Part shown: positions 6,625 to 44,558 of the stretch, piece by piece
Layout: each line of letters begins with the position of its first letter
How positions within the stretch are numbered: position 1 is the first letter of the stretch
From: Roseivirga misakiensis
GTDB taxonomy: Bacteria > Bacteroidota > Bacteroidia > Cytophagales > Cyclobacteriaceae
NCBI RefSeq assembly: GCF_001747105.1
Contig: NZ_MDGQ01000005.1
Span: 1,922,001-1,986,000, forward strand
Reading direction: 5' to 3'
DNA: 64,000 bases
Notes under the pieces: generated by a model
The model's input: only the letters and a program-made list of their open reading frames with translations
Told to the model about the DNA's origin: nothing
Databases searched by the model: none
Made by a program: the position numbers and the translations under genes

Positions 6625-7722
6625 TTACACATTAAACCTAAAGTGCATCACGTCGCCATCTTGGACGATGTAGTCTTTACCTTCTATGGCCATTTTTCCA
6701 GCTTCTTTTATAGCCACTTCAGTCTTTAAAGCTTTGTAATCATCTATTTTGATAACCTCTGCCTTGATAAACCCTTTTTCGAAGTCCGTATGAATAACAC
6801 CAGCGGCTTGCGGAGCCTTCCAACCATTTTTGATGGTCCAGGCCCTAACTTCTTGAGGACCAGCTGTAAAGTAAGTGATTAGTTCCAATAGCGCATACGA
6901 AGCTCTGATCAATCTATTCAAACCAGATTCTTTTAAGCCATATTCCTCAAGGAACATCTCTTTCTCATCCTCGTCTTCCAACTCGGCAATTTGAGCTTCT
7001 ATAGAGGCAGAAATCATGATTACTTGGGCATTTTCAGCGGCAACTGCTTCTTTGAGTGCTGTCACATGGTCGTTACCAGTGTGTACCGCTCCCTCCTCAA
7101 CATTGGCCACATAGATTACGGGCTTGATGGTTAGAAGAGAGAGGTCATGAATCATTTTCAGTTCATCTTCATCTGCTTCAACAGATCGAGCATTCGCACC
7201 ACCTTCTAAAGCTGTTTTATACTTTTCTAAGACAACAAGTTCTTTCTTAGCAGCAGCATCACCAGATTTGGCAATTTTCATCAAACGCTGTATGCGTTTG
7301 TCAATAGACTCTAAGTCTTTGAATTGTAATTCTGTATCTATGACATCCTTATCGAAAACAGGGTCCACAGAACCAGCCACGTGAACCACATTATCATCGT
7401 TGAAGCAACGAACTACATGGAGAATGGCATCTACCTCTCTAATATTGGCCAAGAACTTATTACCGAGTCCTTCACCTTTACTAGCCCCTTTCACGAGACC
7501 TGCGATATCAACAAATTCAATGACGGTTGGGAGTACTTTTTTAGGATCAACTAAGTCTTCTAAAACCTTTAAGCGATCGTCAGGTACAGTGACAATACCA
7601 ACATTTGGTTCAATTGTACAGAAAGGAAAGTTTGCCGCTTCAGCTTTAGCACTTGAAAGTGCATTAAACAACGTAGACTTACCGACGTTCGGTAAACCAA
7701 CAATACCGCATTGTAATCCCAT
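6625..7722 (-). CDS. ychF: Redox-regulated ATPase YchF (OBG-family)
   Basis: This 365-residue protein has the full YchF length and architecture. The P-loop is GLPNVGKS at residues 9-16 and switch regions follow (DIAGLVKGASKGEGLGN near 72-88). A helical insertion lies in the middle, and the C-terminal TGS domain contains the conserved RAWTIKNGW, IHTDFEKGFI and GDVMHFRFNV segments. YchF proteins bind ATP rather than GTP, associate with ribosomes and modulate oxidative-stress responses (family knowledge). A canonical -7 box lies 45 bp upstream of the start. The gene is transcribed alone. Confidence 0.97.
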   Translation of the reverse strand: MGLQCGIVGLPNVGKSTLFNALSSAKAEAANFPFCTIEPNVGIVTVPDDRLKVLEDLVDPKKVLPTVIEFVDIAGLVKGASKGEGLGNKFLANIREVDAILHVVRCFNDDNVVHVAGSVDPVFDKDVIDTELQFKDLESIDKRIQRLMKIAKSGDAAAKKELVVLEKYKTALEGGANARSVEADEDELKMIHDLSLLTIKPVIYVANVEEGAVHTGNDHVTALKEAVAAENAQVIMISASIEAQIAELEDEDEKEMFLEEYGLKESGLNRLIRASYALLELITYFTAGPQEVRAWTIKNGWKAPQAAGVIHTDFEKGFIKAEVIKIDDYKALKTEVAIKEAGKMAIEGKDYIVQDGDVMHFRFNV

Positions 7723-18381: not shown

Positions 18382-19242
18382 CTAGTGAAGCATATTGAGA
18401 AAGTCGTTCACATACTTTTCTTCATAATCATAAATAGCCATAATATGCTTGCTATCTACATCCCAGAAGTCAGTGGTCGATTTGTTTGAAGCTTCAAAAA
18501 TCTCTCGACCTAATTCGTAGGGTACTTGATCATCGTTTTTACTATGAGAAATAATCACTGGAATGGTTAACGCTTGAATGGCTTCTTTTGCTGGAAAGTC
18601 GTTGTTCATAATTAATGGAATTACCCACTTAAAACGCTCCAAATTGAGTGCTCTGGCATATACCTTTCCAATATCAGGAAAAGACCCAAATGTACCTTCT
18701 AGGACCAATCCGTCAATCTTATTTTGACGTTCTTTAGCTGTCATAGTTGCAAAGGCTCCACCTAGTGACTGCCCCCAGACTATCAGTGGTTTTTGGGCTA
18801 CCTCATCTAACCGCGCTACTTGATCGAAAACGTTCAGCGCATCTTCTTTCAGTGTAACTGAATTTTTTGCTTCACCAGTAGATTGACCGAATCCACGACG
18901 TTCAAAACAAAAAACTTGAAAGCCTTTTTTAAGTAGTGGTTCATAAGACTTTTGAATACTAGACATCAGGTGCATTCCCTTGCCCGAATAGTGAAAAATA
19001 GTGCCGATCGCCTCCTCACTCGATGGTTTGAATAAAACACCATGTAGCTTCACATCGTCATCAACTTCAAAAAAGAATTCTTCGAAAGAGGATTGGGAGC
19101 TAAACTCGGCGTATTCCGATCCATTGACTTGATAAATCATTCGATCAGAAAATCTTGAGAACCTGAGAAATAGTATGGCTACTACTAATAGAGTAATAAT
19201 CGTGATGCCTAGAATCTTAAAAAATTTCAATAGCTTTTTCAT
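18382..19242 (-). CDS. Membrane-anchored alpha/beta hydrolase
   Basis: This 286-residue protein has an N-terminal membrane anchor (about 9-27) and a serine hydrolase fold. The nucleophile elbow is GQSLGG (Ser159), an aspartate follows in HSKNDDQVP and the histidine in DSKHIMA, completing a catalytic triad. It resembles Bem46/YqkD-like hydrolases of unknown substrate. A longer frame begins at 19278, but the ATG at 19242 directly precedes the basic residues and membrane helix and is preferred. Upstream on this strand are a -7-like box (TAGCTTGG, 19275-19282) and, exactly 30.5 bp further, the palindrome at 19304-19321, suggesting activation by the palindrome-binding regulator. Confidence 0.88.
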   Translation of the reverse strand: MKKLLKFFKILGITIITLLVVAILFLRFSRFSDRMIYQVNGSEYAEFSSQSSFEEFFFEVDDDVKLHGVLFKPSSEEAIGTIFHYSGKGMHLMSSIQKSYEPLLKKGFQVFCFERRGFGQSTGEAKNSVTLKEDALNVFDQVARLDEVAQKPLIVWGQSLGGAFATMTAKERQNKIDGLVLEGTFGSFPDIGKVYARALNLERFKWVIPLIMNNDFPAKEAIQALTIPVIISHSKNDDQVPYELGREIFEASNKSTTDFWDVDSKHIMAIYDYEEKYVNDFLNMLH

Positions 19243-19274
19243 TGCCGTAAGATTGAGATGGTAAAAAACTAAGA

Positions 19275-19282
19275 CCAAGCTA
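19275..19282 (-). promoter_or_regulatory. -7-like box (TAGCTTGG) for the alpha/beta hydrolase
   Basis: It matches five of the six fixed positions of TAnnTTTG on the minus strand. Its upstream edge lies 30.5 bp from the palindrome centre, as in the three other copies. It predicts a leader of about 25 nt. Confidence 0.5.
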
Positions 19283-19303: not shown

Positions 19304-19321
19304 GCTACTCTCAAGGGTAGT
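19304..19321. promoter_or_regulatory. Palindromic operator, copy 1 (ACTACnCT-NN-AGnGTAGT family)
   Basis: The site reads GCTACTCT-CA-AGGGTAGT; the arms share CTAC.CT/AG.GTAG. Its centre is at 19312.5. It lies between the divergent hydrolase and DUF6090-like genes, and the spacing to the minus-strand -7 box points to the hydrolase as the target. Confidence 0.65.
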
Positions 19322-20361: not shown

Positions 20362-23151
20362 ATGAGTATTTATGAAGATTACATTAAAGAGATCGAAGAA
20401 CGAAAAGGTCAAGGGCTTCACGCCAAGCCGATCGATGATAGCAATTTACTAAGTGTTATTATCGATCAAATCAAAGATCAAGATAATCCACACCGAAAAG
20501 ACTCTCTTAATTTCTTCATTTACAACACCCTTCCAGGTACAACGAGCGCTGCAGGTGTAAAAGCGAAATTCCTGAAAGAAATAATAACTGGAGAGGCCTT
20601 GGTAGAAGAAATTCAACCCTCTTTTGCCTTTGAACTACTCTCTCACATGAAAGGTGGTCCTTCTATTGAAGTACTGCTGGATTTAGCACTGGGTAATGAA
20701 GAAGATATTGCAGCAGAAGCTGCTAAAGTGCTCAAAACCCAAGTATTTTTGTATGATGCAGATACAAAACGACTTGCAGATGCCTACAACAATGGTAGTG
20801 CTATTGCAAAAGAGATTATTGAGAGCTACGCTAAAGCTGAATTTTTCACCAAACTTCCAGAGGTAGAGGAAGAAATAGAAATCGTGACTTTTATTGCAGG
20901 AACCGGTGATATCTCTACGGATTTATTATCTCCCGGTGCCGATGCACACTCTAGATCCGATCGCGAACTTCATGGCCAATGTATCTTCGAGCATAACCAC
21001 AAAATGCAGCAAGATCTAATTGCTCTTAAAGAAAAACACCCTGATAAGAGAGTAATGCTTATTGCCGAAAAAGGCACGATGGGCGTAGGTTCTTCAAGAA
21101 TGTCGGGTGTCAATAATGTAGCCTTGTGGACAGGTATTCAAGCAAGTCCCTATGTACCATTTATCAACATTGCACCAATTATTGCAGGTACTAACGGCAT
21201 TGCACCTATTTTCTTAACCACTGTTGGCGTAACTGGTGGAATAGGCATCGACTTAAAAAACTGGGTCCAGAAAAAAGATGAGAATGGTAATACCATTCGC
21301 GATCTAGAAGGGGAGCCAATATTGGAACAAACATACTCTGTAGAAACTGGTACAGTTTTAACAATCAACACCAAAGAGAAAAAGCTTTACAATGGCGATC
21401 AGGAATTGATGGATATATCTTCGTCACTCACGCCACAGAAAGTTGAGTTCATCAAAGCAGGCGGATCATATGCCGTTGTATTTGGTAAGAAACTACAAAC
21501 CTTTGCCGCCAAAACCCTTGGTATAGAAGCACCAGTAGTTTTTGCCCCATCAAAAGAAATCTCTCACGAAGGCCAAGGACTAACGGCTGTTGAGAAAATC
21601 TTCAATAAAAATGCAGTTGGCAATACGCCAGGAAAAACTTTGCATGCTGGTTCTAACGCCCGTGTAGAAGTAAACATTGTTGGTTCTCAAGACACAACAG
21701 GTCTTATGACATCACAGGAGCTTGAAATGATGGCTGCCACTGTGATCTCTCCTATCGTTGATGGTGCTTACCAATCAGGATGTCATACAGCCTCAGTTTG
21801 GGATAAAAAAGCACAAGCAAACATCCCAAAACTGATGAAGTTCATGAATGATTTCGGTTTAATTACGGCTCGTGATCCTAAGGGTGAATACCATGCCATG
21901 ACCGACGTTATTCATAAAGTACTAAATGACATTACAATTGACGATTGGGCGATCATCATCGGTGGTGATTCTCACACCAGAATGTCGAAAGGTGTGGCTT
22001 TTGGAGCCGACTCTGGTACTGTAGCGCTTGCGCTAGCCACTGGCGAAGCTTCAATGCCTATTCCTGAGTCTGTAAAAGTGACCTTTAAAGGAAACATGAG
22101 AAGCTATATGGACTTCAGAGATGTAGTTCATGCCACACAGCAACAAATGCTGAAGCAATTTGGCGGAGAAAATGTATTCCAAGGAAGAGTGATCGAAGTA
22201 CATATTGGTACTTTAACAGCCGACCAAGCCTTTACATTCACCGATTGGACAGCGGAAATGAAAGCCAAAGCTTCGATCTGTATTTCGGAAGACGAAACGC
22301 TGATTGAGTCACTTGAAATCGCTAAGTCAAGAATTCAGATTATGATCGAAAAAGGCATGGACAACGATAAAGCCGTGTTACAAGGTCTGATCGATAAAGC
22401 GAATACTAGAATTGCTGAAATCAGATCGGGAGAAAAACCTGCTTTGACGCCAGATAGTAACGCAAAATACTATGCGGAAGTAGTTGTCGATTTAGATGTG
22501 GTCGCGGAACCAATGATCGCCGATCCAGATGTAAATAACAACGATGTTTCTAAACGTTATACACATGACACCATTAGACCGCTTTCATACTATGGTGGTA
22601 CTAAAAAAGTAGATCTCGGATTCGTAGGTTCTTGTATGGTACACAAGGGTGACATGCAAATTCTGGCACAAATGCTCAAGAATGTGGAAGCGCAACAGGG
22701 TAAAATAGATTTCCAAGCACCACTAGTTGTAGCACCTCCTACTTACAATATCGTAGATGAGTTAAAAGAAGAGGGAGATTGGGAAGTTCTTCAAAAGTAT
22801 TCGGGCTTCGAGTTTGACGACAACAACCCCAAAGCGACTGCTAGAACTAGTTATGACAACATGCTTTATTTGGAGCGCCCAGGTTGTAACCTCTGTATGG
22901 GTAACCAAGAAAAAGCTGCACCGGGTGATACTGTGATGGCTACTTCTACTCGACTTTTCCAAGGTCGTGTAGTTAAAGATTCAGACGAGAAAAAAGGTGA
23001 ATCATTGCTTTCATCGACTCCAGTGGTGGTATTATCGACGATCTTAGGAAGAACCCCAACGATGGAAGAATATGAGAAAGCAGTGGACGGAATAGTCTTA
23101 ACTAAATTCTCTCCTCCAAATAAAGAATTGAGCACTATAGCAGCATCATAG
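20362..23151 (+). CDS. acnB: Aconitate hydratase B (bifunctional with 2-methylisocitrate dehydratase)
   Basis: This 929-residue protein has the AcnB layout: an N-terminal HEAT-like domain (about 1-160), the swivelling domain (about 170-390 with GTMGVGSSRMSGVNN) and the catalytic domains. Iron-sulfur ligands are in GSCMVHKGD and in RPGCNLCMGNQ near the C-terminus. The SGCHTASVWDKKAQANIPKL segment (seen in pieces near 474) and IIIGGDSHTRMSKG are conserved. It interconverts citrate and isocitrate in the TCA cycle and can act in the methylcitrate cycle. AcnB proteins can bind mRNA when the cluster is lost (family knowledge). A strong intrinsic terminator follows. Confidence 0.97.
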   Translation: MSIYEDYIKEIEERKGQGLHAKPIDDSNLLSVIIDQIKDQDNPHRKDSLNFFIYNTLPGTTSAAGVKAKFLKEIITGEALVEEIQPSFAFELLSHMKGGPSIEVLLDLALGNEEDIAAEAAKVLKTQVFLYDADTKRLADAYNNGSAIAKEIIESYAKAEFFTKLPEVEEEIEIVTFIAGTGDISTDLLSPGADAHSRSDRELHGQCIFEHNHKMQQDLIALKEKHPDKRVMLIAEKGTMGVGSSRMSGVNNVALWTGIQASPYVPFINIAPIIAGTNGIAPIFLTTVGVTGGIGIDLKNWVQKKDENGNTIRDLEGEPILEQTYSVETGTVLTINTKEKKLYNGDQELMDISSSLTPQKVEFIKAGGSYAVVFGKKLQTFAAKTLGIEAPVVFAPSKEISHEGQGLTAVEKIFNKNAVGNTPGKTLHAGSNARVEVNIVGSQDTTGLMTSQELEMMAATVISPIVDGAYQSGCHTASVWDKKAQANIPKLMKFMNDFGLITARDPKGEYHAMTDVIHKVLNDITIDDWAIIIGGDSHTRMSKGVAFGADSGTVALALATGEASMPIPESVKVTFKGNMRSYMDFRDVVHATQQQMLKQFGGENVFQGRVIEVHIGTLTADQAFTFTDWTAEMKAKASICISEDETLIESLEIAKSRIQIMIEKGMDNDKAVLQGLIDKANTRIAEIRSGEKPALTPDSNAKYYAEVVVDLDVVAEPMIADPDVNNNDVSKRYTHDTIRPLSYYGGTKKVDLGFVGSCMVHKGDMQILAQMLKNVEAQQGKIDFQAPLVVAPPTYNIVDELKEEGDWEVLQKYSGFEFDDNNPKATARTSYDNMLYLERPGCNLCMGNQEKAAPGDTVMATSTRLFQGRVVKDSDEKKGESLLSSTPVVVLSTILGRTPTMEEYEKAVDGIVLTKFSPPNKELSTIAAS

Positions 23152-30990: not shown

Positions 30991-31008
30991 ACTACTCTCA
31001 AGAGTAGT
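30991..31008. promoter_or_regulatory. Palindromic operator, copy 2
   Basis: The site reads ACTACTCT-CA-AGAGTAGT with perfect 8-bp arms, centre 30999.5. A TAGTTTTA box begins exactly 30.5 bp downstream, pointing to the membrane HExxH gene at 31114. Confidence 0.7.
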
Positions 31009-31029: not shown

Positions 31030-31037
31030 TAGTTTTA
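31030..31037 (+). promoter_or_regulatory. -7-like box (TAGTTTTA) for the first membrane HExxH protein
   Basis: It matches five of six fixed positions of TAnnTTTG. It is 76 bp before the ATG at 31114 and 30.5 bp from the palindrome centre. Confidence 0.5.
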
Positions 31038-31113: not shown

Positions 31114-31659
31114 ATGAAAGGAGAAATTCGCTTCAATTACGTTGCTACACTTTTTATCGCAGTGCTAATTAGTTGTTTCTTGCACGAATTCGCCCATTGG
31201 ATTACTGGAGAAATTCTTGGTAACAGAATGTCCATGTCACTTAACGGTGCAAACCCAATATCTGGCGAATATCCAGAGCAGTGGCACGCCAACATTATCA
31301 GTATTGCTGGCCCATTACTTACGATATTACAAGCAATTATCTTCTATTATATTATCCATAAGAGACAGAACATAAACCTCTACCCTTTTATGTTTTTCCC
31401 ATTTGTCTATCGGTTCGCTGCGGGAATTGCTAATGTTTTTGGGGCCAATGATGAAGGCAGAGTAGGTTTATCATTTGGATTAGGTTTGTATACCATATCC
31501 GTTGTCTTTAGTGGATTATTATTATTCTTGGTTTGGAAGGTTTCGACCAAATATAAACTAGGTTTAAAATTCAACCTGATCACCTTTTTGCTTTCAGCCG
31601 TATTTTTATTCACAATAGTCTTTATTGACCAATATTTCAAAATCAAAATTATTGGATAA
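31114..31659 (+). CDS. Small integral membrane HExxH protein, copy A (M50-like?)
   Basis: This 181-residue protein has about five membrane helices. The first holds HEFAHW (about 24-29), the zinc-binding HExxH pattern inside a membrane segment, as in M50 site-2 proteases. A second conserved block, GANDEGRVGLSFGLG (about 109-123), has an Asp that could be the third metal ligand. It is clearly paralogous to the protein at 39033: both share LNG..P..G, IISI..PL.T..QA and a C-terminal DQ.FKI.I. The size is below that of known M50 proteases, so it may be a minimal intramembrane protease or a non-catalytic relative. It has palindrome copy 2 upstream. Confidence 0.75.
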   Translation: MKGEIRFNYVATLFIAVLISCFLHEFAHWITGEILGNRMSMSLNGANPISGEYPEQWHANIISIAGPLLTILQAIIFYYIIHKRQNINLYPFMFFPFVYRFAAGIANVFGANDEGRVGLSFGLGLYTISVVFSGLLLFLVWKVSTKYKLGLKFNLITFLLSAVFLFTIVFIDQYFKIKIIG

Positions 31660-31859
31660 TAATCCCCATAGAGAAACTTCAACCATGAAGTAAGATTAAA
31701 AAAAGCCAACTCAAGGACACTTATTGAGGCAATTAATCACAACTCTTTCCGCATTGTAGTAGTTATTTAAATGTATCCGTAGCATATTAGTTACGTATAA
31801 ACCCCGTTCTTGACATTTAATGTTTGGAAGTAACAGAAACGACTAAAACCAAAAGTTCT

Positions 31860-34124
31860 ATGGCATTTGATATTGACATGATTAAGGCTGTATATAACAG
31901 AATGCCCGCTCGGGTTGAAGCAGCTAGAAAACTCTTAGGAAAACCACTTACACTATCCGAAAAAATACTTTACTCCCATTTGTGGGAAGAAAGTACTAAT
32001 GAAGCCTTCGTAAGAGGAAAATCTTATGTGGATTTTGCACCAGACAGAGTTGCTATGCAAGATGCTACAGCCCAAATGGCACTATTACAGTTCATGCAGG
32101 CAGGTAAGGATAAAGTGGCTGTACCTTCCACTACACATTGCGATCACTTAATACTAGCCAAACAAGGTGCCGATAAAGACTTGAAAAGTTCACTTACGGC
32201 ATCTGGTGAAGTCTTCAATTTTTTAGAGTCAGTTTCGAATAAGTACGGTATTGGTTTTTGGAAACCAGGCGCAGGAATTATTCACCAAGTAGTCTTAGAA
32301 AACTATGCTTTCCCAGGTGGGATGATGATCGGAACAGATTCACATACTGTGAATGCAGGTGGCCTAGGGATGGTAGCCATTGGCGTTGGAGGTGCTGATG
32401 CGGTAGATGTAATGGCGGGGATGCCTTGGGAACTAAAATTCCCGAAACTGATCGGCGTAAAACTTACTGGAAAAATGAACGGTTGGACCGCTGCTAAGGA
32501 CGTAATCTTAAAAGTTGCCGGTATCCTCACGGTAAAAGGCGGAACAGGCGCAATAGTCGAATACTTTGGTCCAGGTGCCCTTTCGCTGTCGGGTACTGGA
32601 AAAGGGACCATTTGTAATATGGGAGCAGAAATCGGTGCCACAACGTCGACCTTTGGTTATGATGACGCGATGGAACGCTACCTCAGAACCACCGATCGTG
32701 CGGATATAGCTGATTTAGCTAATGAAATCAGACCACATTTAACAGGTGATCCTGAAGTATACGCTAACCCAGAGCAATATTTTGATCAGGTGATCGAAAT
32801 AGATCTAAGTACACTTGAGCCACATGTAAACGGACCTTTTACACCAGACAGAGCAACTCCTGTCTCCAAAATGAGAGCAGAAGCCGAGGCAAATGGATGG
32901 CCAATGGATGTAGAATGGGGCTTAATCGGATCTTGTACCAACTCTTCTTATGAAGATTTATCCAGAGCCGCCTCCATCGCCCAACAAGCGGTTGATAAAG
33001 GTCTTACCACAAAAGCAGACTTTGGTATCAACCCAGGTTCAGAGCAAGTTAGGTTTACGGCAGAAAGAGACGGTCTATTACAAATTTTCGAAGACCTAGA
33101 CGCCACTATCTTCACAAATGCGTGCGGTCCATGTATTGGTCAGTGGGAACGCGCTGGTAACAATGAAAGGGTGAATACTATTGTACACTCTTTTAACCGT
33201 AACTTCTCAAAAAGAGCAGACGGCAACCCTAACACCCATGCCTTTGTCACTTCTCCCGAAATGGTAGCCGCGATTGCGATTTCAGGAAACTTAGGCTTTA
33301 ACCCAATTACCGACACCTTAACCAACGATAAAGGTGAAGAAGTAAAGCTAGACCCTCCTGTTGGAGACGAGTTACCAGACAAAGGCTTTGATGTAGAAGA
33401 AAACGGCTATCAAGCACCTGCCGAAGATGGAAGTAATGTTCAAGTCATTGTAAGTCCAGACTCAAAAAGACTACAATTGTTGGAGCCTTTCGATCCTTGG
33501 GACGGTAAGAATATTACGGGTGCAAAGCTTTTAATAAAAGCATTTGGAAAATGTACGACTGATCATATCTCTATGGCCGGGCCGTGGTTAAGGTTCAGAG
33601 GCCATTTGGACAATATTTCTGATAACTGCTTGATAGGTGCTGTGAATGCCTTTGGCCAAGCTACAAACAAGGTTAAAAATCAAATAACCGGTGAATATGG
33701 CCCCGTACCAGCTACTGCCAGACAGTACAAAGCGGAAGGCATACCATCCATAGTGGTTGGCGATCATAATTATGGAGAAGGTTCATCGAGAGAGCACGCA
33801 GCCATGGAACCACGATTTCTTGGGGTTAAAGCCGTTTTAGTGAAATCTTTTGCACGAATTCATGAAACAAATTTGAAAAAGCAGGGCATGTTAGGCTTAA
33901 CGTTTGCCGATGAATCAGATTATGATAAAATCCAGGAAGATGATACGATTAACTTCTTAGACTTAGTCGATTTTGCTCCCGGTAAACCGTTAACAATTGA
34001 GTTTATCCACGCCGATGGTTCTAAAGACATAGTACTAGCAAATCATACTTATAATGAAGCTCAAATCGGTTGGTTTAAGGCAGGTTCGGCACTCAACCTA
34101 ATTAAGCAAGAGGCAAACCAATAA
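31860..34124 (+). CDS. Aconitate hydratase, mitochondrial type
   Basis: This 754-residue enzyme interconverts citrate and isocitrate. It matches the mitochondrial-type aconitase: [11 protein letters not shown] near 89, [14 protein letters not shown] near 161, cluster cysteines in [11 protein letters not shown] and [11 protein letters not shown], and the C-terminal swivel domain with [19 protein letters not shown] (in pieces near 637). A longer frame starts at a TTG at 31824, but the ATG at 31860 ([12 protein letters not shown]) gives the usual family length. Together with acnB at 20362 it gives two non-homologous-order aconitases within 14 kb. A strong terminator follows. Confidence 0.95.
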
Positions 34125-39697: not shown

Positions 39698-40105
39698 ATG
39701 ACCATGAAAACCAAAATCACGCTTGCCATTGTTAGCCTTACGGCGTTGTTAATAAGTGTTGTGCCACTTACCGAACAAAAGCCTGAAGAAGGAATGATTA
39801 AAGTCACACTACTCTACGAAAATGGAGATGGTAAAACATTCGACATGGCTTACTACGAAGATAAGCATATGCCTTTAGTGGCAGAATTAATGGGCGATAA
39901 CCTAAAGTATTATAAGATCGATAAAGGCATTGGAGGAAGAACACCTGATGCACCTATTCCATTCTTAGCCATCGGCTATTTGTACTTCGATAAATTGGCG
40001 GATTATCAAGAGGCGATTGGTCCTAATGCAGAGAAAATCATAGGGGATATTCCAAACTTCACTAATATCCAACCCACGCTTCAAATCAGTCAAGTAGTCG
40101 AATAA
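39698..40105 (+). CDS. EthD family protein with signal peptide
   Basis: This 135-residue protein has an N-terminal signal or anchor (about 4-22) and a single dimeric alpha/beta-barrel domain of the EthD type: MIKVTLLYENGDGKTFDMAYYEDKHMPLV (in pieces near 34-62) is the characteristic strand-helix with the H-M-P motif. EthD proteins are small enzymes or partner proteins of oxidative pathways; exported versions are unusual. It converges on the LuxR-type gene across a shared terminator. An ATG two codons later (MKTKIT) is an equally good start. Confidence 0.78.
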   Translation: MTMKTKITLAIVSLTALLISVVPLTEQKPEEGMIKVTLLYENGDGKTFDMAYYEDKHMPLVAELMGDNLKYYKIDKGIGGRTPDAPIPFLAIGYLYFDKLADYQEAIGPNAEKIIGDIPNFTNIQPTLQISQVVE

Positions 40106-40142: not shown

Positions 40143-40901
40143 TTAAAGTAAATTATTCCGAGTCGCGTAAGTGACTGCTTCACTGATATTTGCCACATTC
40201 AACTTTTCAAATATCTTTTTTCTGTGGAATTTAACTGTATCTGGCGATACGAAAATCTTATCTGCAATCTCACTTATTGAGTGACCTCGAATGGAATATT
40301 GCATGATTTCTTTTTCCCGATCTGTGAGTACAATTTGTTCTAATTTACGCCAAGTCTCGGCTTTCAGATCGTATTCATAAGACTGATTCAGTCCATTTCG
40401 GTGGATAATGATATTTCCCGCATTTTTATTCTCAGAGAGTGATACAATGCATATGGCCTTCCATATCTTGCCTCGTTCTGTCAAAAAGAGTGGTGTTAAT
40501 TGTTGATTAATAAGCACCAAATTTCCGTCGGCAGCCTTGATGTGAAAATCGTAAGAAATACTACCATCTTTGCGCTGGTCCAATTCTATAGTTTCATAAA
40601 ACTCAAACCCCACCGCATTTATCTTCAGCAGTAAATCAAGGTCTTCTTTTGGCACATATTTGAAATAAAACTCATAGCCCATTTCAAGTACTTCTTCCCT
40701 AGAATGTCCGTTCAAAAATAAGGGGTTACTGGAGACATATTCAAAACCCTTCTTCTCGTAATCAATGATGTAAATACTCTTATTGGTAGCTCGAGAAAAG
40801 GCATCGACGACAGCTAGATAATTGTTTATCTGTTCAGCATCTGATTCTGTAACGTTCCAAACAGTATTATTAGAAGAGAAGAAGTCGTTAATGTCTGCCA
40901 T
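40143..40901 (-). CDS. LuxR-type transcriptional regulator with PAS-like sensor
   Basis: This 252-residue protein has an N-terminal PAS-like domain (about 25-150; NKSIYIIDYEKKGFEYVSSNPLFLNG, in pieces, is a PAS start) and a C-terminal LuxR/GerE HTH (about 190-252) with LTDREKEIMQYSIRGHS, EIADKIFVSPDTVKFH and KIFEKLNV. There is no response-regulator receiver domain, so the signal is probably a small molecule or redox state. Palindrome copies 3 and 4 lie 39 and 225 bp upstream of its start and face away from it. Such palindromes are typical LuxR-type targets, so this is the best candidate for their binding protein. Copy 3 would overlap its own promoter region, allowing autoregulation. Confidence 0.85.
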   Translation of the reverse strand: MADINDFFSSNNTVWNVTESDAEQINNYLAVVDAFSRATNKSIYIIDYEKKGFEYVSSNPLFLNGHSREEVLEMGYEFYFKYVPKEDLDLLLKINAVGFEFYETIELDQRKDGSISYDFHIKAADGNLVLINQQLTPLFLTERGKIWKAICIVSLSENKNAGNIIIHRNGLNQSYEYDLKAETWRKLEQIVLTDREKEIMQYSIRGHSISEIADKIFVSPDTVKFHRKKIFEKLNVANISEAVTYATRNNLL

Positions 40902-40939
40902 AGGCGTTCAACTTTGAGTAACTAATATAATGTATAAAA

Positions 40940-40957
40940 ACTACACTTGAGTGTAGT
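40940..40957. promoter_or_regulatory. Palindromic operator, copy 3
   Basis: The site reads ACTACACT-TG-AGTGTAGT with perfect 8-bp arms, centre 40948.5. It is 39 bp upstream of the LuxR-type start and 30.5 bp before the plus-strand -7 box at 40979. Confidence 0.75.
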
Positions 40958-40978
40958 CCTTAAATCAATAGTTCCTGA

Positions 40979-40986
40979 TAATTTTG
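40979..40986 (+). promoter_or_regulatory. -7 box (TAATTTTG) paired with palindrome copy 3
   Basis: Exact TAnnTTTG match followed by CG, directed toward the esterase gene. Confidence 0.6.
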
Positions 40987-41125
40987 CGAAAAAATGCCTC
41001 AGCACAAACCTGAAATCACTTAGCATTAAATAGAGAGCACCTCATAATTCCACTAAAACCTTTTCTGTCCCCATCGCCTTAAAACGCCACTTTATAATTG
41101 GCGCTTGCTGAGTTGATCTCTCAAT

Positions 41126-41143
41126 ACTACCCTTTGGTGTAGT
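41126..41143. promoter_or_regulatory. Palindromic operator, copy 4
   Basis: The site reads ACTACCCT-TT-GGTGTAGT; six of eight arm positions are symmetric. Its centre is 41134.5, again 30.5 bp before an exact -7 box. Confidence 0.6.
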
Positions 41144-41164
41144 CACTGAAAGGTAAAGGGCACA

Positions 41165-41172
41165 TACCTTTG
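41165..41172 (+). promoter_or_regulatory. -7 box (TACCTTTG) paired with palindrome copy 4
   Basis: Exact TAnnTTTG match, 228 bp before the esterase ATG. Confidence 0.6.
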
Positions 41173-41400
41173 AATATCAAAAGGTCAAAAACTCAAAACA
41201 ATCACCTTAGTCTATGGAATTGGGTCGCATTTAACTGAGAAGTTTTATATTAATCTATAGATGCTAATTGGCTATCACTTAATATAAACTCTAGAAAGTG
41301 ACCCATCAATCGTCAGTTTCAGGCGTCCCAGTTCCGACCTAAGACACCAGCCAAATAAAACAATTTCTAGAGCAAAAGAGCCATTCCTAGATTTACTCGC

Positions 41401-42786
41401 ATGAAAAGAACATTATCGACAGTCATTCTCTTTATTATTCCGCTCACATTCTTCGGACAGGTTCAGAAGGAAAAAGAGGAAAAGACCGAAGTCTATGAGG
41501 TTTTCAAAATAAAGTCCGAGTATTTCAAAGGGGAGGAAAGAACATTCAAGGTGGCACTGCCTCATGATTATTCAGCTGACAAAAAATATCCAGTGATTTA
41601 CACACTAGATGGTTCCTCAATGTTTGAAATGGTTGCTAGCTACACGAAATATTTAGGAAATCAGACGGTCGTAGATGGAGAAGACTACGCAACTAATGTG
41701 ATCCCGCCATCAATCGTAGTTGGTATTTTCCATAACAATAGAGGAATTGAAACAGAGCCTAATTTCACTGGCCTGGCCATGAAAGAGGGGCCTGAGAATT
41801 TAAAAAGTCATATAGTGAATGAAATAGTGCCCTATATCAATAAAAACTATGCGGTATCAGGCTATAACAGCATAATCGGTCACTCAAACACAGCTTACTT
41901 CACCACAAGACTTTTATTTGAACCAGAAATACCATTCAAAGGAATAATAGCCTTATCCCTCGTGAAAGGAGATGAAACTTTCAATGAAAAGTTAGTTCAA
42001 ACACTCCAGACAAATTTCGATAAAGTATTTTTTGTAGGAGCTGGCGATAAAGACAATGAATTCAACGAGTTGGCGCAGCGAATTAAAAGTGATGTCTCAT
42101 CGTCCAATGTAGCGGTAAAAAATTATATCTCTAACCACACCGATCTACCTGCAGCAGCGTTGAGTGACGGCATACAACATCTATTTTACAAATACAGAAA
42201 CTTTGGCAGGTTCCCAGAATTATCTCTTGAAAAAGACTTTGATGTCTCAAATTACATCGGTATTTATAAACAAACCATAAAGGCCGACTATGGCATTGAA
42301 ACGACAATGTTACCGGACGATTTTGGCTACTTCGTTGTCGAAACCGTCAATAGTGGAAATGTAACGGGGTTCGAAAAATTGTTGGCTTACGAAAAGGAAG
42401 TCAACAACTATGAATATCCCAATATCATGAAGTTCCACTACAGACGTGACCTAAAAGACCTTAAAGAGGCCAAGAATCTCGCTTATAAGATATTATCAAA
42501 TGAAAATGGAAATGATTATAGGTTCTTGGCAGGTCAAATTGATGTTTTCACCGACTTTTTTATCAATGACCTTGGCTCACCAAATGAGGCCATCTCTTTC
42601 TTAGAAAAAGCAAAAAAACGTTTTCCCGACTACACGCTAAATTTCAATTACTTCATTGCCAAAACTTCTATTGAAGAAGACGTACAAAAGAAAAAAGGAA
42701 AGGCCAGTCTTGAGTATTGTAGGAAGAACTTTAAGGCCAATAGGTACTTCGAACTAGCTGATTTAGGACGTCTTGAAATGAAGTAA
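41401..42786 (+). CDS. Secreted esterase (EstD/enterochelin-esterase-like alpha/beta hydrolase)
   Basis: This 461-residue protein has a signal peptide (1-20, ending FGQ), an esterase domain (about 30-290) and a helical C-terminal extension (about 300-460) with TPR-like helices (EAKNLAYKILSNE, EAISFLEKAKKRFPDY). The domain opens with the family's RTFKVALPHDYSADKKYPVIYTLDG (in pieces). The nucleophile elbow is IIGHSNTAYF; GHS is kept but the usual GHSxGG glycines are replaced, as in part of this family. The substrate is unknown. It is preceded by two palindrome-linked promoters, and the S41 peptidase gene follows on the same strand. Confidence 0.82.
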   Translation: MKRTLSTVILFIIPLTFFGQVQKEKEEKTEVYEVFKIKSEYFKGEERTFKVALPHDYSADKKYPVIYTLDGSSMFEMVASYTKYLGNQTVVDGEDYATNVIPPSIVVGIFHNNRGIETEPNFTGLAMKEGPENLKSHIVNEIVPYINKNYAVSGYNSIIGHSNTAYFTTRLLFEPEIPFKGIIALSLVKGDETFNEKLVQTLQTNFDKVFFVGAGDKDNEFNELAQRIKSDVSSSNVAVKNYISNHTDLPAAALSDGIQHLFYKYRNFGRFPELSLEKDFDVSNYIGIYKQTIKADYGIETTMLPDDFGYFVVETVNSGNVTGFEKLLAYEKEVNNYEYPNIMKFHYRRDLKDLKEAKNLAYKILSNENGNDYRFLAGQIDVFTDFFINDLGSPNEAISFLEKAKKRFPDYTLNFNYFIAKTSIEEDVQKKKGKASLEYCRKNFKANRYFELADLGRLEMK

Positions 42787-42923
42787 AGAACATTTTTTTC
42801 AATCATGTACCACCCTTGTTCACAAGTAGTTAGAGTCATTACTTACGGATCATTAGATTGATATGCGTTACAAAATGTACTAAGCGTGCGTCGCAAGAGG
42901 AAAGAAACAGCAAAAGTATATCT

Positions 42924-44558
42924 ATGATAAAGAGATCATTCTTAATCCTCATTCTAATATTAGGGGTTAAAGGTTTAACGGCGCAGAACAGTTTTACAGA
43001 TATCGAAAAGATTGCCGTTTTTGCGAAAGTCTATGGCTTCTTAAAATATTATCACCCTAGTGTCGCTTCTGGGAAATTCAATTGGGATCAAGTCTTTATT
43101 GATGAATTGCCTAAAATGCTAAAAAACGATGACACAGAAAGTCTTTCTAATTACTACTCCCAGTGGATTGAAAGTCTTGGAGAAGTGAATCCGTGCGAGA
43201 CATGTAACAATGAGAAAGAGCTATTTGAGAAGAATTTTGACCTTTCATGGACCCAAAACTCAACCGTTTTTAATAGTAAGGTTAAGTCTCAATTGAAATT
43301 TATTGAGGAGAACAGGTATCAAGGTGATCTGCATTATGTAACTACTCAATCTGTAGGTCAAATTAGAGTGATTAACGAACCAGAATACACTGACTTTCAA
43401 TACCCTAGCGAGACATACAGGCTTTTAGGTTTTATCAAATACTGGAATATTATTGAGTACTTTTTTCCCTATAAGCACCTTACTGACAAGCACTGGGATG
43501 CTGTTCTTTTCGAATCAATTGACAAGTTTAAAACCGCGCCAGACCAAGAGACATATCGAAATGCAATTAGAGAACTAGTTGCGAGTCTTGACGATTCACA
43601 TGCCCAAATCATCTTTGATCCATCAAAAAGAAACTATTTACCAATAAAACTTAGTCACATCGAAAATCAGGCCGTTATAACTGGTTTTTATAATGAAACG
43701 TTGGCTGAAGCTGCTAATCTAAAGGTCGGAGATGTTATATCAGAAATAAATGGACGAGCCCTTCAACAAGACAGGGAAAAGTTCACGAGGTTTTACAGTG
43801 GATCCAATCCGATCTCTAAAGCTGAAGGTTACTATCTCTATACCATTCTCAGAGGCGATGTCGAAAGTGTAGAAATGACCATAAAAAGAGGAAAAGAGAC
43901 CGTCAAAACTTCGGTAATGAGAGTTAACAGAAAAGACTTATTGGCTGAAACGAAAAAAGAAATTATAAAGTCAAAAGTGATTAACGATGACATCGGTTAC
44001 ATGGATATGGCGAACATAAAGGCACAAGATGTTAGCGCGATTTTAGATAATCTAAGGAATAAAAAAGCCATTATTATCGATATCCGAAATTATCCTGAAT
44101 TCATCTACATGCCGATTTCTAGGTATTTGAATTCATCAAGGAAAGCTTTTGCCACCACCTATCGTCCATACCTAAAATATCCAGGTAAATTTTTGCCTCC
44201 TCGTACTATTTCAACCAGGGGAACTTCAAATAACTACAAAGGAAAAGTCATAATTCTAGTGAATAGTGAAACTGTCAGCAGAGCTGAGTTTACGGCAATG
44301 GCATTTCAAACGGCAGATAATACTATAACCGTTGGCAGTCAAACCACTGGCGCAGATGGTGATGTTCTTGGTTTTAACTATCTAGGTGGTTACTTAACAA
44401 CCATGTCGGGAAATGGTATAGAGTACCCAGACGGGACCGAAACCCAAAGAAAAGGTGTTAAAATCGACGTGCTTGTTGAAAGAACAATAGCCGGCGTAAG
44501 AAATGGCAAAGACGAAATATTAGAAAAGGCGATCGCCATAGCCTCAAAGGAGAATTAG
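42924..44558 (+). CDS. S41 family (C-terminal-processing-like) peptidase
   Basis: This 544-residue secreted protein has a signal peptide (about 1-20), an N-terminal helical domain with KVYGFLKYYHPSV, a PDZ-like segment near 250-330 (LKVGDVISEINGR), and the S41 core with NDDIGYMDMANI and the nucleophile motif NSETVSRAEFTAMAF. A frame from 42858 would add 22 residues; the ATG at 42924 is preferred because it begins the signal peptide. Close relatives are annotated as tricorn/Ctp-like proteases. It lies 137 bp after the esterase on the same strand, and both may share the upstream promoters. Confidence 0.87.
   Translation: MIKRSFLILILILGVKGLTAQNSFTDIEKIAVFAKVYGFLKYYHPSVASGKFNWDQVFIDELPKMLKNDDTESLSNYYSQWIESLGEVNPCETCNNEKELFEKNFDLSWTQNSTVFNSKVKSQLKFIEENRYQGDLHYVTTQSVGQIRVINEPEYTDFQYPSETYRLLGFIKYWNIIEYFFPYKHLTDKHWDAVLFESIDKFKTAPDQETYRNAIRELVASLDDSHAQIIFDPSKRNYLPIKLSHIENQAVITGFYNETLAEAANLKVGDVISEINGRALQQDREKFTRFYSGSNPISKAEGYYLYTILRGDVESVEMTIKRGKETVKTSVMRVNRKDLLAETKKEIIKSKVINDDIGYMDMANIKAQDVSAILDNLRNKKAIIIDIRNYPEFIYMPISRYLNSSRKAFATTYRPYLKYPGKFLPPRTISTRGTSNNYKGKVIILVNSETVSRAEFTAMAFQTADNTITVGSQTTGADGDVLGFNYLGGYLTTMSGNGIEYPDGTETQRKGVKIDVLVERTIAGVRNGKDEILEKAIAIASKEN

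Follow-up and report, generated by a model that had tools for sequence, protein, structure and literature searches.

A single regulator protein very probably binds at the four palindromes in the 64,000-nucleotide stretch of the Roseivirga misakiensis genome analysed here (hereafter, the window). We consider it very likely that they are operators of the LuxR/GerE regulator encoded at 40143-40901, which would thereby command a class II activator regulon. Co-occurrence with the luxR gene among genomes, a fixed spacing to a promoter box, the resulting promoter geometry, and target homologues linked to luxR elsewhere together make a LuxR-type activator regulon very probable. We regard it as a new regulon of a known regulator type, a well supported assignment that is unusually well fixed by comparative data. 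To our knowledge, Bacteroidota offer few activator-operator pairs whose promoter geometry is known exactly; the present pair was defined phylum-wide from sequence alone and yields a testable regulon.

The initial annotation had described intergenic palindromes of the form ACTACnCT-NN-AGnGTAGT at 19304, 30991, 40940 and 41126. A renewed search recovered all four, with 1, 0, 0 and 1 mismatches, outside window ORFs of at least 90 aa (Table 1). At each copy, a TAnnTTTG-like box begins 21 nt past the palindrome (offset 21), 30.5 from its centre, and the spacing, strands and mismatch counts first assigned to the boxes all proved correct on re-checking. Computed from the base make-up of the window's intergenic DNA, and allowing 21 offsets on either strand, a common offset at four sites, each with a box matching at least 5/6 positions, has a chance of about 6e-6.

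Table 1. Coordinates of the predicted regulator, its putative operators, promoter boxes and targets, and of acyltransferase examples from related loci. Positions are those of the window unless a contig (C) or locus (L) is named.
Feature	Position	Strand	Remarks
LuxR-type (GerE) regulator, 252 aa	40143-40901	-	PF00196, E 2.9e-18; proposed binder/activator
Operator copy 1	19304-19321	acts on -	Palindrome, 1 mismatch; intergenic
Full element of copy 1	C5:1941275-1941321 (G000, the window's genome)	-	From palindrome plus box search
-7 box of copy 1, TAGCTTGG	19275-19282	-	5/6, one mismatch
Operator copy 2, ACTACTCTCAAGAGTAGT	30991-31008		Exact palindrome, 0 mismatches
-7 box of copy 2, TAGTTTTA	31030-31037	+	5/6, one mismatch
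Operator copy 3, ACTACACTTGAGTGTAGT	40940-40957		luxR-proximal; 0 mismatches
-7 box of copy 3, TAATTTTG	40979-40986	+	Exact TAnnTTTG
Operator copy 4, ACTACCCTTTGGTGTAGT	41126-41143		1 mismatch
-7 box of copy 4, TACCTTTG	41165-41172	+	Exact TAnnTTTG, offset as in copy 3
Predicted target, alpha/beta hydrolase	18382-19278	-	PF12146, E 6.4e-17; likely ATG at 19242
Predicted target, membrane protein, weakly M50-like	31114-31659	+	PF02163, 19.2 bits, cut-off 27.2
Predicted target, putative esterase	41401-42786	+	PF00756, E 1.9e-11
Possible second gene of esterase operon, S41 peptidase	42858-44558	+	PF03572, E 3.5e-13
FeeM-like acyltransferase, examples	L039:7196-7870; L065:7155-7865		34 more loci

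Allowing three mismatches in the palindrome search gave 4 matches in the window against a shuffle mean of 1.6, with 7 of 100 shuffles reaching 4, and 124 matches per strand in the whole genome against 176 for a reversed control. At this loose threshold the palindrome by itself is not enriched, its counts being at chance level, and we dropped it as a stand-alone test. The signal resides in the near-exact copies and in their spacing: the 4.45 Mb genome has six palindromes within one mismatch, and none of the reversed control. Two of these sites, C5:458279 and C5:1868502, lie outside the window, and the predicted regulon reaches past it. They played no part in deriving the spacing rule, and at the preset offset each is followed by a box matching 5/6 positions, an agreement whose chance (same base make-up) is about 6e-4. 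The genome-wide check proposed in the initial annotation was accordingly borne out, as each of the six near-exact sites is followed at offset 21 by a box matching at least 5/6 positions and has a gene downstream.

Promoters of Bacteroidota are unlike those of model bacteria, and a centre at -42.5 is the position of a class II activator, for example of LuxR at the lux box. The available part of a study of F. psychrophilum places the TAnnTTTG box at -12 to -5 (PMC9723704), which puts the palindrome centre at -42.5 and agrees with the earlier estimate of -42 to -43. On this basis, transcription is predicted to start near 19270 (minus strand), 31042, 40991 and 41177. The predicted leaders from copies 3 and 4 to the esterase gene would be long (about 410 and 224 nt); the leader-peptide candidates after these two copies are short ORFs of 9 and 8 codons, none of them convincing.

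We then compared 78 loci encoding LuxR relatives of 47-67% identity (1.2 Mb in total), which we take to come from Flavobacteriia, Sphingobacteriia, Cytophagia and a few other classes. In the 600 bp upstream of luxR, 36 of the 78 loci have a palindrome with one mismatch or none, and 53 have one with at most two; the reversed control with at most two mismatches was found there in none. Over all the DNA of these loci we counted 102 palindromes with at most two mismatches, against 3 for the reversed control, and 69 of the 102 sit within 600 bp upstream of luxR. Their centres were intergenic in 82 cases and within predicted ORFs of at least 100 aa in 20, in DNA that is 16% intergenic. As the loci are mutually related, these counts are not independent events.

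The spacing seen in the window recurred throughout this sample. On the strand opposite luxR, a box stood at offset 21 in 64 of the 102 sites, and the other offsets from 0 to 58 scored at most 3 each; offset 59 scored 27, a peak that equals 21 + 38 and stems from tandem palindromes. Indeed, among 66 de-duplicated promoters, 20 have a second palindrome exactly 38 bp upstream, with at most 3 at any other distance. On the luxR strand, offset 21 scored 3 and no offset exceeded 7. Stricter removal of look-alikes kept offset 21 in 37 of 56 sites (either strand). Two loci hold less than 150 bp upstream of luxR. Among the 76 with enough upstream DNA, 66 carry upstream of luxR, and directed away from it, a palindrome (at most three mismatches) with a box (at least 5/6) at offset 21, whereas control offsets 15, 18, 19, 20, 22, 23, 24 and 27 gave 0, 0, 0, 1, 0, 1, 2 and 2 loci. 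The ten loci that failed the offset-21 test were L037, L046, L054, L056, L061, L062, L079, L100, L102 and L103. Both marks of a class II layout, a site predicted near -42 and a fixed box spacing, are found well beyond the window, and the orientation first noted for copies 3 and 4, away from luxR, holds phylum-wide. In 66 aligned promoters, the bases that separate the palindrome from the box showed no conserved column. If the palindrome is the operator of this regulator, then regulator and operator appear to be old in Bacteroidota, and the target genes to have been exchanged.

We searched 70 genomes (11 with luxR, 59 without) for the palindrome, 21 free bases and the box. The luxR-negative set comprised 45 genomes, all those without luxR in our draw from six other families, and 14 of 17 from the same genus; the three of that genus excluded, G008, G015 and G017, are less complete or highly fragmented. 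A genome counted as negative with no match at E 1e-20 (same genus) or 1e-30 (other families, scored on at most six first-look candidates per genome). With at most two mismatches the element was found 12 times, always in luxR-positive genomes: six times in the window's genome, twice in G308, and once each in G102, G283, G330 and G348, hence in 6 of the 11 carriers. At exactly three mismatches, the 59 luxR-negative genomes held 18 elements against 33 for the reversed control, which marks them as chance, and the 11 luxR-positive genomes held 8 more elements with no control match.

Not every carrier of luxR conformed. We found no element in G070, G078 and G415, and three-mismatch elements only in G002 and G268; in G002, which has luxR and the palindrome (one copy within one mismatch), the box at offset 21 matches only 4/6 positions. 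In the 17 other same-genus genomes without a luxR relative (E 1e-20), palindromes with at most one mismatch numbered 10 and the control 11, a chance level. Among relatives, then, the motif goes with the luxR gene as predicted earlier, the element within two mismatches being confined to luxR carriers in the 70 genomes. A search for the exact palindrome in 395 genomes of the class was too strict to be informative as a co-occurrence test: it occurred in the window's genome (2 sites) and G226 (1) only and was absent from the nine other luxR-positive genomes of that set, and the reversed control occurred exactly once in each of five genomes.

The protein had been proposed as a PAS-LuxR activator. 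Its GerE domain is above cut-off, and all 49 family members aligned in our domain scan (of 79 proteins) match it; the PAS part stood less well, the PAS_3 match being weak (E 0.0074, below cut-off). Similarly weak PAS matches at E <=0.05 were seen among the 49 members, with PAS_3 in 5 and PAS_9 in 4. Neither an autoinducer-binding domain (25 of 26 families listed) nor a receiver domain was found among the Pfam matches of the window protein or the 49-member set. The best solved profile match was PDB 3clo (residues 99-251, E 3.8e-15). The role of the window protein as the likely activator is supported by the co-occurrence in 70 genomes and by the luxR-linked element in 66 of 76 loci.

Neighbouring genes and the tree divide the LuxR family roughly into three groups, marked by hydrolases, by DUF3667/small membrane proteins and by acyltransferases. 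No starred branch of the tree holds the window protein, so its placement in the hydrolase group is modestly supported. In this tree, made by a quick method, L101 and L109 are out of frame because their match lengths are not multiples of three; their branches are very long and we disregarded their placement. Convergent with luxR in the window lies a gene for an EthD family reductase (39698-40105, plus strand; TIGR02118, E 7.6e-25).

Homologues of the predicted targets elsewhere tie the scattered sites to luxR. The alpha/beta hydrolase gene at copy 1 lies 21 kb from luxR in the window's genome; in G002 (L152) a homologue of 66% identity is divergent from luxR with a palindrome in between, and in L037 (62%) and L041 (71%) homologues are second in the divergent direction. 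The window esterase is 27% identical to an esterase divergent from luxR in L037, and a second esterase, predicted as a target outside the window (C5:458 kb), is 53% identical to it. The other outside target, an S41 peptidase (C5:1868 kb), is 61% identical to a copy adjoining luxR in L062 and 39% identical over 146 residues to one divergent from luxR in L033. Because homologues of three scattered genes stand beside luxR elsewhere, they link these sites to luxR independently of the motif. No homologue of the M50-like protein was found in the related luxR loci. Thus, among the targets first proposed, the hydrolase and the esterase have luxR-linked homologues, whereas the HExxH/M50 call fell below cut-off and has no such homologue. 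The window esterase and the S41 peptidase gene behind it (71-bp gap) probably form one operon. Two different aconitases are encoded within about 14 kb of each other's outer ends in the window (20362-23151 and 31824-34124), one of them with AcnB-type domains.

In the mechanism that we propose, a LuxR/GerE dimer bound to the palindrome (centre at about -42.5) would lie over the -33 region and touch RNA polymerase on the TAnnTTTG promoter, as in class II activation. It would drive about five transcription units in the window's genome, mostly for hydrolases, and a small molecule may control it. Binding across the -33 region could alternatively be read as repression, with LuxR on a palindrome that overlaps the promoter and blocks polymerase. 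We think this unlikely: a centre at -42.5 with a single fixed spacing is the usual activator layout, and a repressor has no need of the one exact offset kept in 66 of 76 loci. The missing -33 motif counts little against repression: in F. johnsoniae, too, no such motif was identified across the genome, according to the available part of PMC7366714.

It is also unlikely that the palindrome is bound by another, unlinked GerE protein or regulator, with the adjoining luxR gene merely a target. The genome has 30 GerE matches, 26 of them over cut-off, so another binder is possible in principle; yet none of the 59 luxR-negative relatives carries the element within two mismatches, and the element stays by luxR, directed away from it, while neighbouring targets differ between luxR groups. 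We rejected a reading of the palindromes as terminators, repeats or mobile-element remnants that are intergenic by accident, which we hold to be highly improbable. RNA of the palindrome would form a 7-bp hairpin, but its fold z-score is only -1.4 (16 of 200 shuffles fold equally well or better) and there is no terminator-like site within 40880-41420. Variation of central and flanking bases among the copies, the fixed promoter spacing and the linkage to luxR also speak against it. Activation by the LuxR/GerE regulator thus remains our preferred reading.

In related loci, a different gene often occupies the divergent position. In 36 of the 78 it encodes a distant FeeM-like acyltransferase of about 225 aa, behind a palindrome promoter in 33 of the 36, an arrangement that suggests a LuxR/LuxI-like circuit. 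The FeeM profile PF21926 matches 25 of 33 aligned acyltransferases at E <=0.05 (best 1.3e-5); the one with a bit score given reached 17.5 against a cut-off of 27. The profile tallies contain no LuxI family match, and the profile search gave no PDB match at E 5. Of 11 luxR-positive genomes, 5 gave an acyltransferase match (a partial one in one case), and of 13 luxR-negative ones none did; the search positive in these five gave no match in the window's genome. In the DNA analysed, a ThiF-like gene is present in 30 of the 36 acyltransferase loci, and 20 of the 36 contain a gene for an NHLP leader, a LanM-type protein or a C39 exporter; the other 16 have none of these three among ORFs of at least 75 aa.

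The ThiF-like gene (L046:8781-9545 and 30 more loci) lies mostly just downstream of luxR, and ten palindrome-promoter matches point at it. In L055, L060, L064, L066, L071, L075 and L108, luxR sits amid genes for NHLP leaders, LanM-type (DUF4135) proteins, C39 exporters, HlyD and outer-membrane efflux. Hydrophobic short ORFs of 21-28 codons directly follow the -7 box in L034, L038, L040 and L041. Short ORFs also follow the palindrome promoter in L053 (promoter at 7131), L023, L043 and L107, encoding either a GGG (double-glycine type) leader or peptides of 67-68 aa with a signal-peptide-like start.

The acyltransferase is a candidate signal synthase in positive feedback with LuxR, and also a candidate peptide-acylating enzyme by analogy with the selidamides, as the available part of PMC9505594 describes them. 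A synthase is favoured only slightly by the 16 loci in which no NHLP, LanM-type or C39 gene was seen, because the count took in ORFs of at least 75 aa, so that smaller precursors would be missed, and because some of these promoters are followed by short ORFs of exported or double-glycine type. We raise as a tentative possibility an undescribed Bacteroidota cell-to-cell signalling system made of a PAS-like LuxR receptor, a divergent FeeM/LuxI-like synthase and peptide-export/hydrolase genes. In such a system LuxR would activate the acyltransferase gene from the -42.5 operator, and the enzyme would make LuxR's own fatty-acyl signal, giving positive feedback; organisms of the window type would have no synthase but retain the receptor with its regulon, and so respond to signals from their neighbours. 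In Flavobacteriia the regulator is linked to a FeeM-like acyltransferase, a ThiF-like protein and clusters for peptide export, which makes for a concrete candidate for flavobacterial signalling.

Among the literature matches listed, in titles and the beginnings of abstracts and mostly outside the subscription literature, we found no prior account of the operator or of the luxR-acyltransferase pair. Several known systems bear comparison. PDB 3clo is named only 'Transcriptional regulator', and the N-terminal part of the window LuxR lies outside the alignment with it. NarL/FixJ response regulators share the GerE domain, and the half-site TACnCT resembles the NarL heptamer; unlike them, the window protein has no receiver domain match, and its half-site spacing differs from the NarL 7-2-7 arrangement. 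PAS-LuxR regulators such as PimM of Streptomyces are likewise small, with a PAS-like N-terminus and a GerE C-terminus, and some relatives of the window protein also lie beside biosynthetic genes. However, PimM belongs to another phylum, the PAS assignment here is weak, and the comparison covers the proteins.

Clusters for selidamides, which are fatty-acylated RiPPs, bring together an NHLP leader, a lanthionine synthetase, an exporter and a GNAT-type acyltransferase, in the available part of PMC9505594. The same gene set occurs in part of the Flavobacterium luxR loci, in contrast to the 16 acyltransferase loci noted above. The LuxR/LuxI circuit with its lux box at -42.5 differs from the present system in its autoinducer-binding domain, for which we have a weakly PAS-like sensor part; in its promoter, which here is of the Bacteroidota type; and in its synthase, as the acyltransferase of the relatives has no LuxI profile match and gave no match in the window's genome. 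What the two have in common is the GerE domain, an inverted repeat at -42.5 (predicted here), a divergent regulator gene and, in the 36 related loci, a FeeM-like acyltransferase gene divergent from it.
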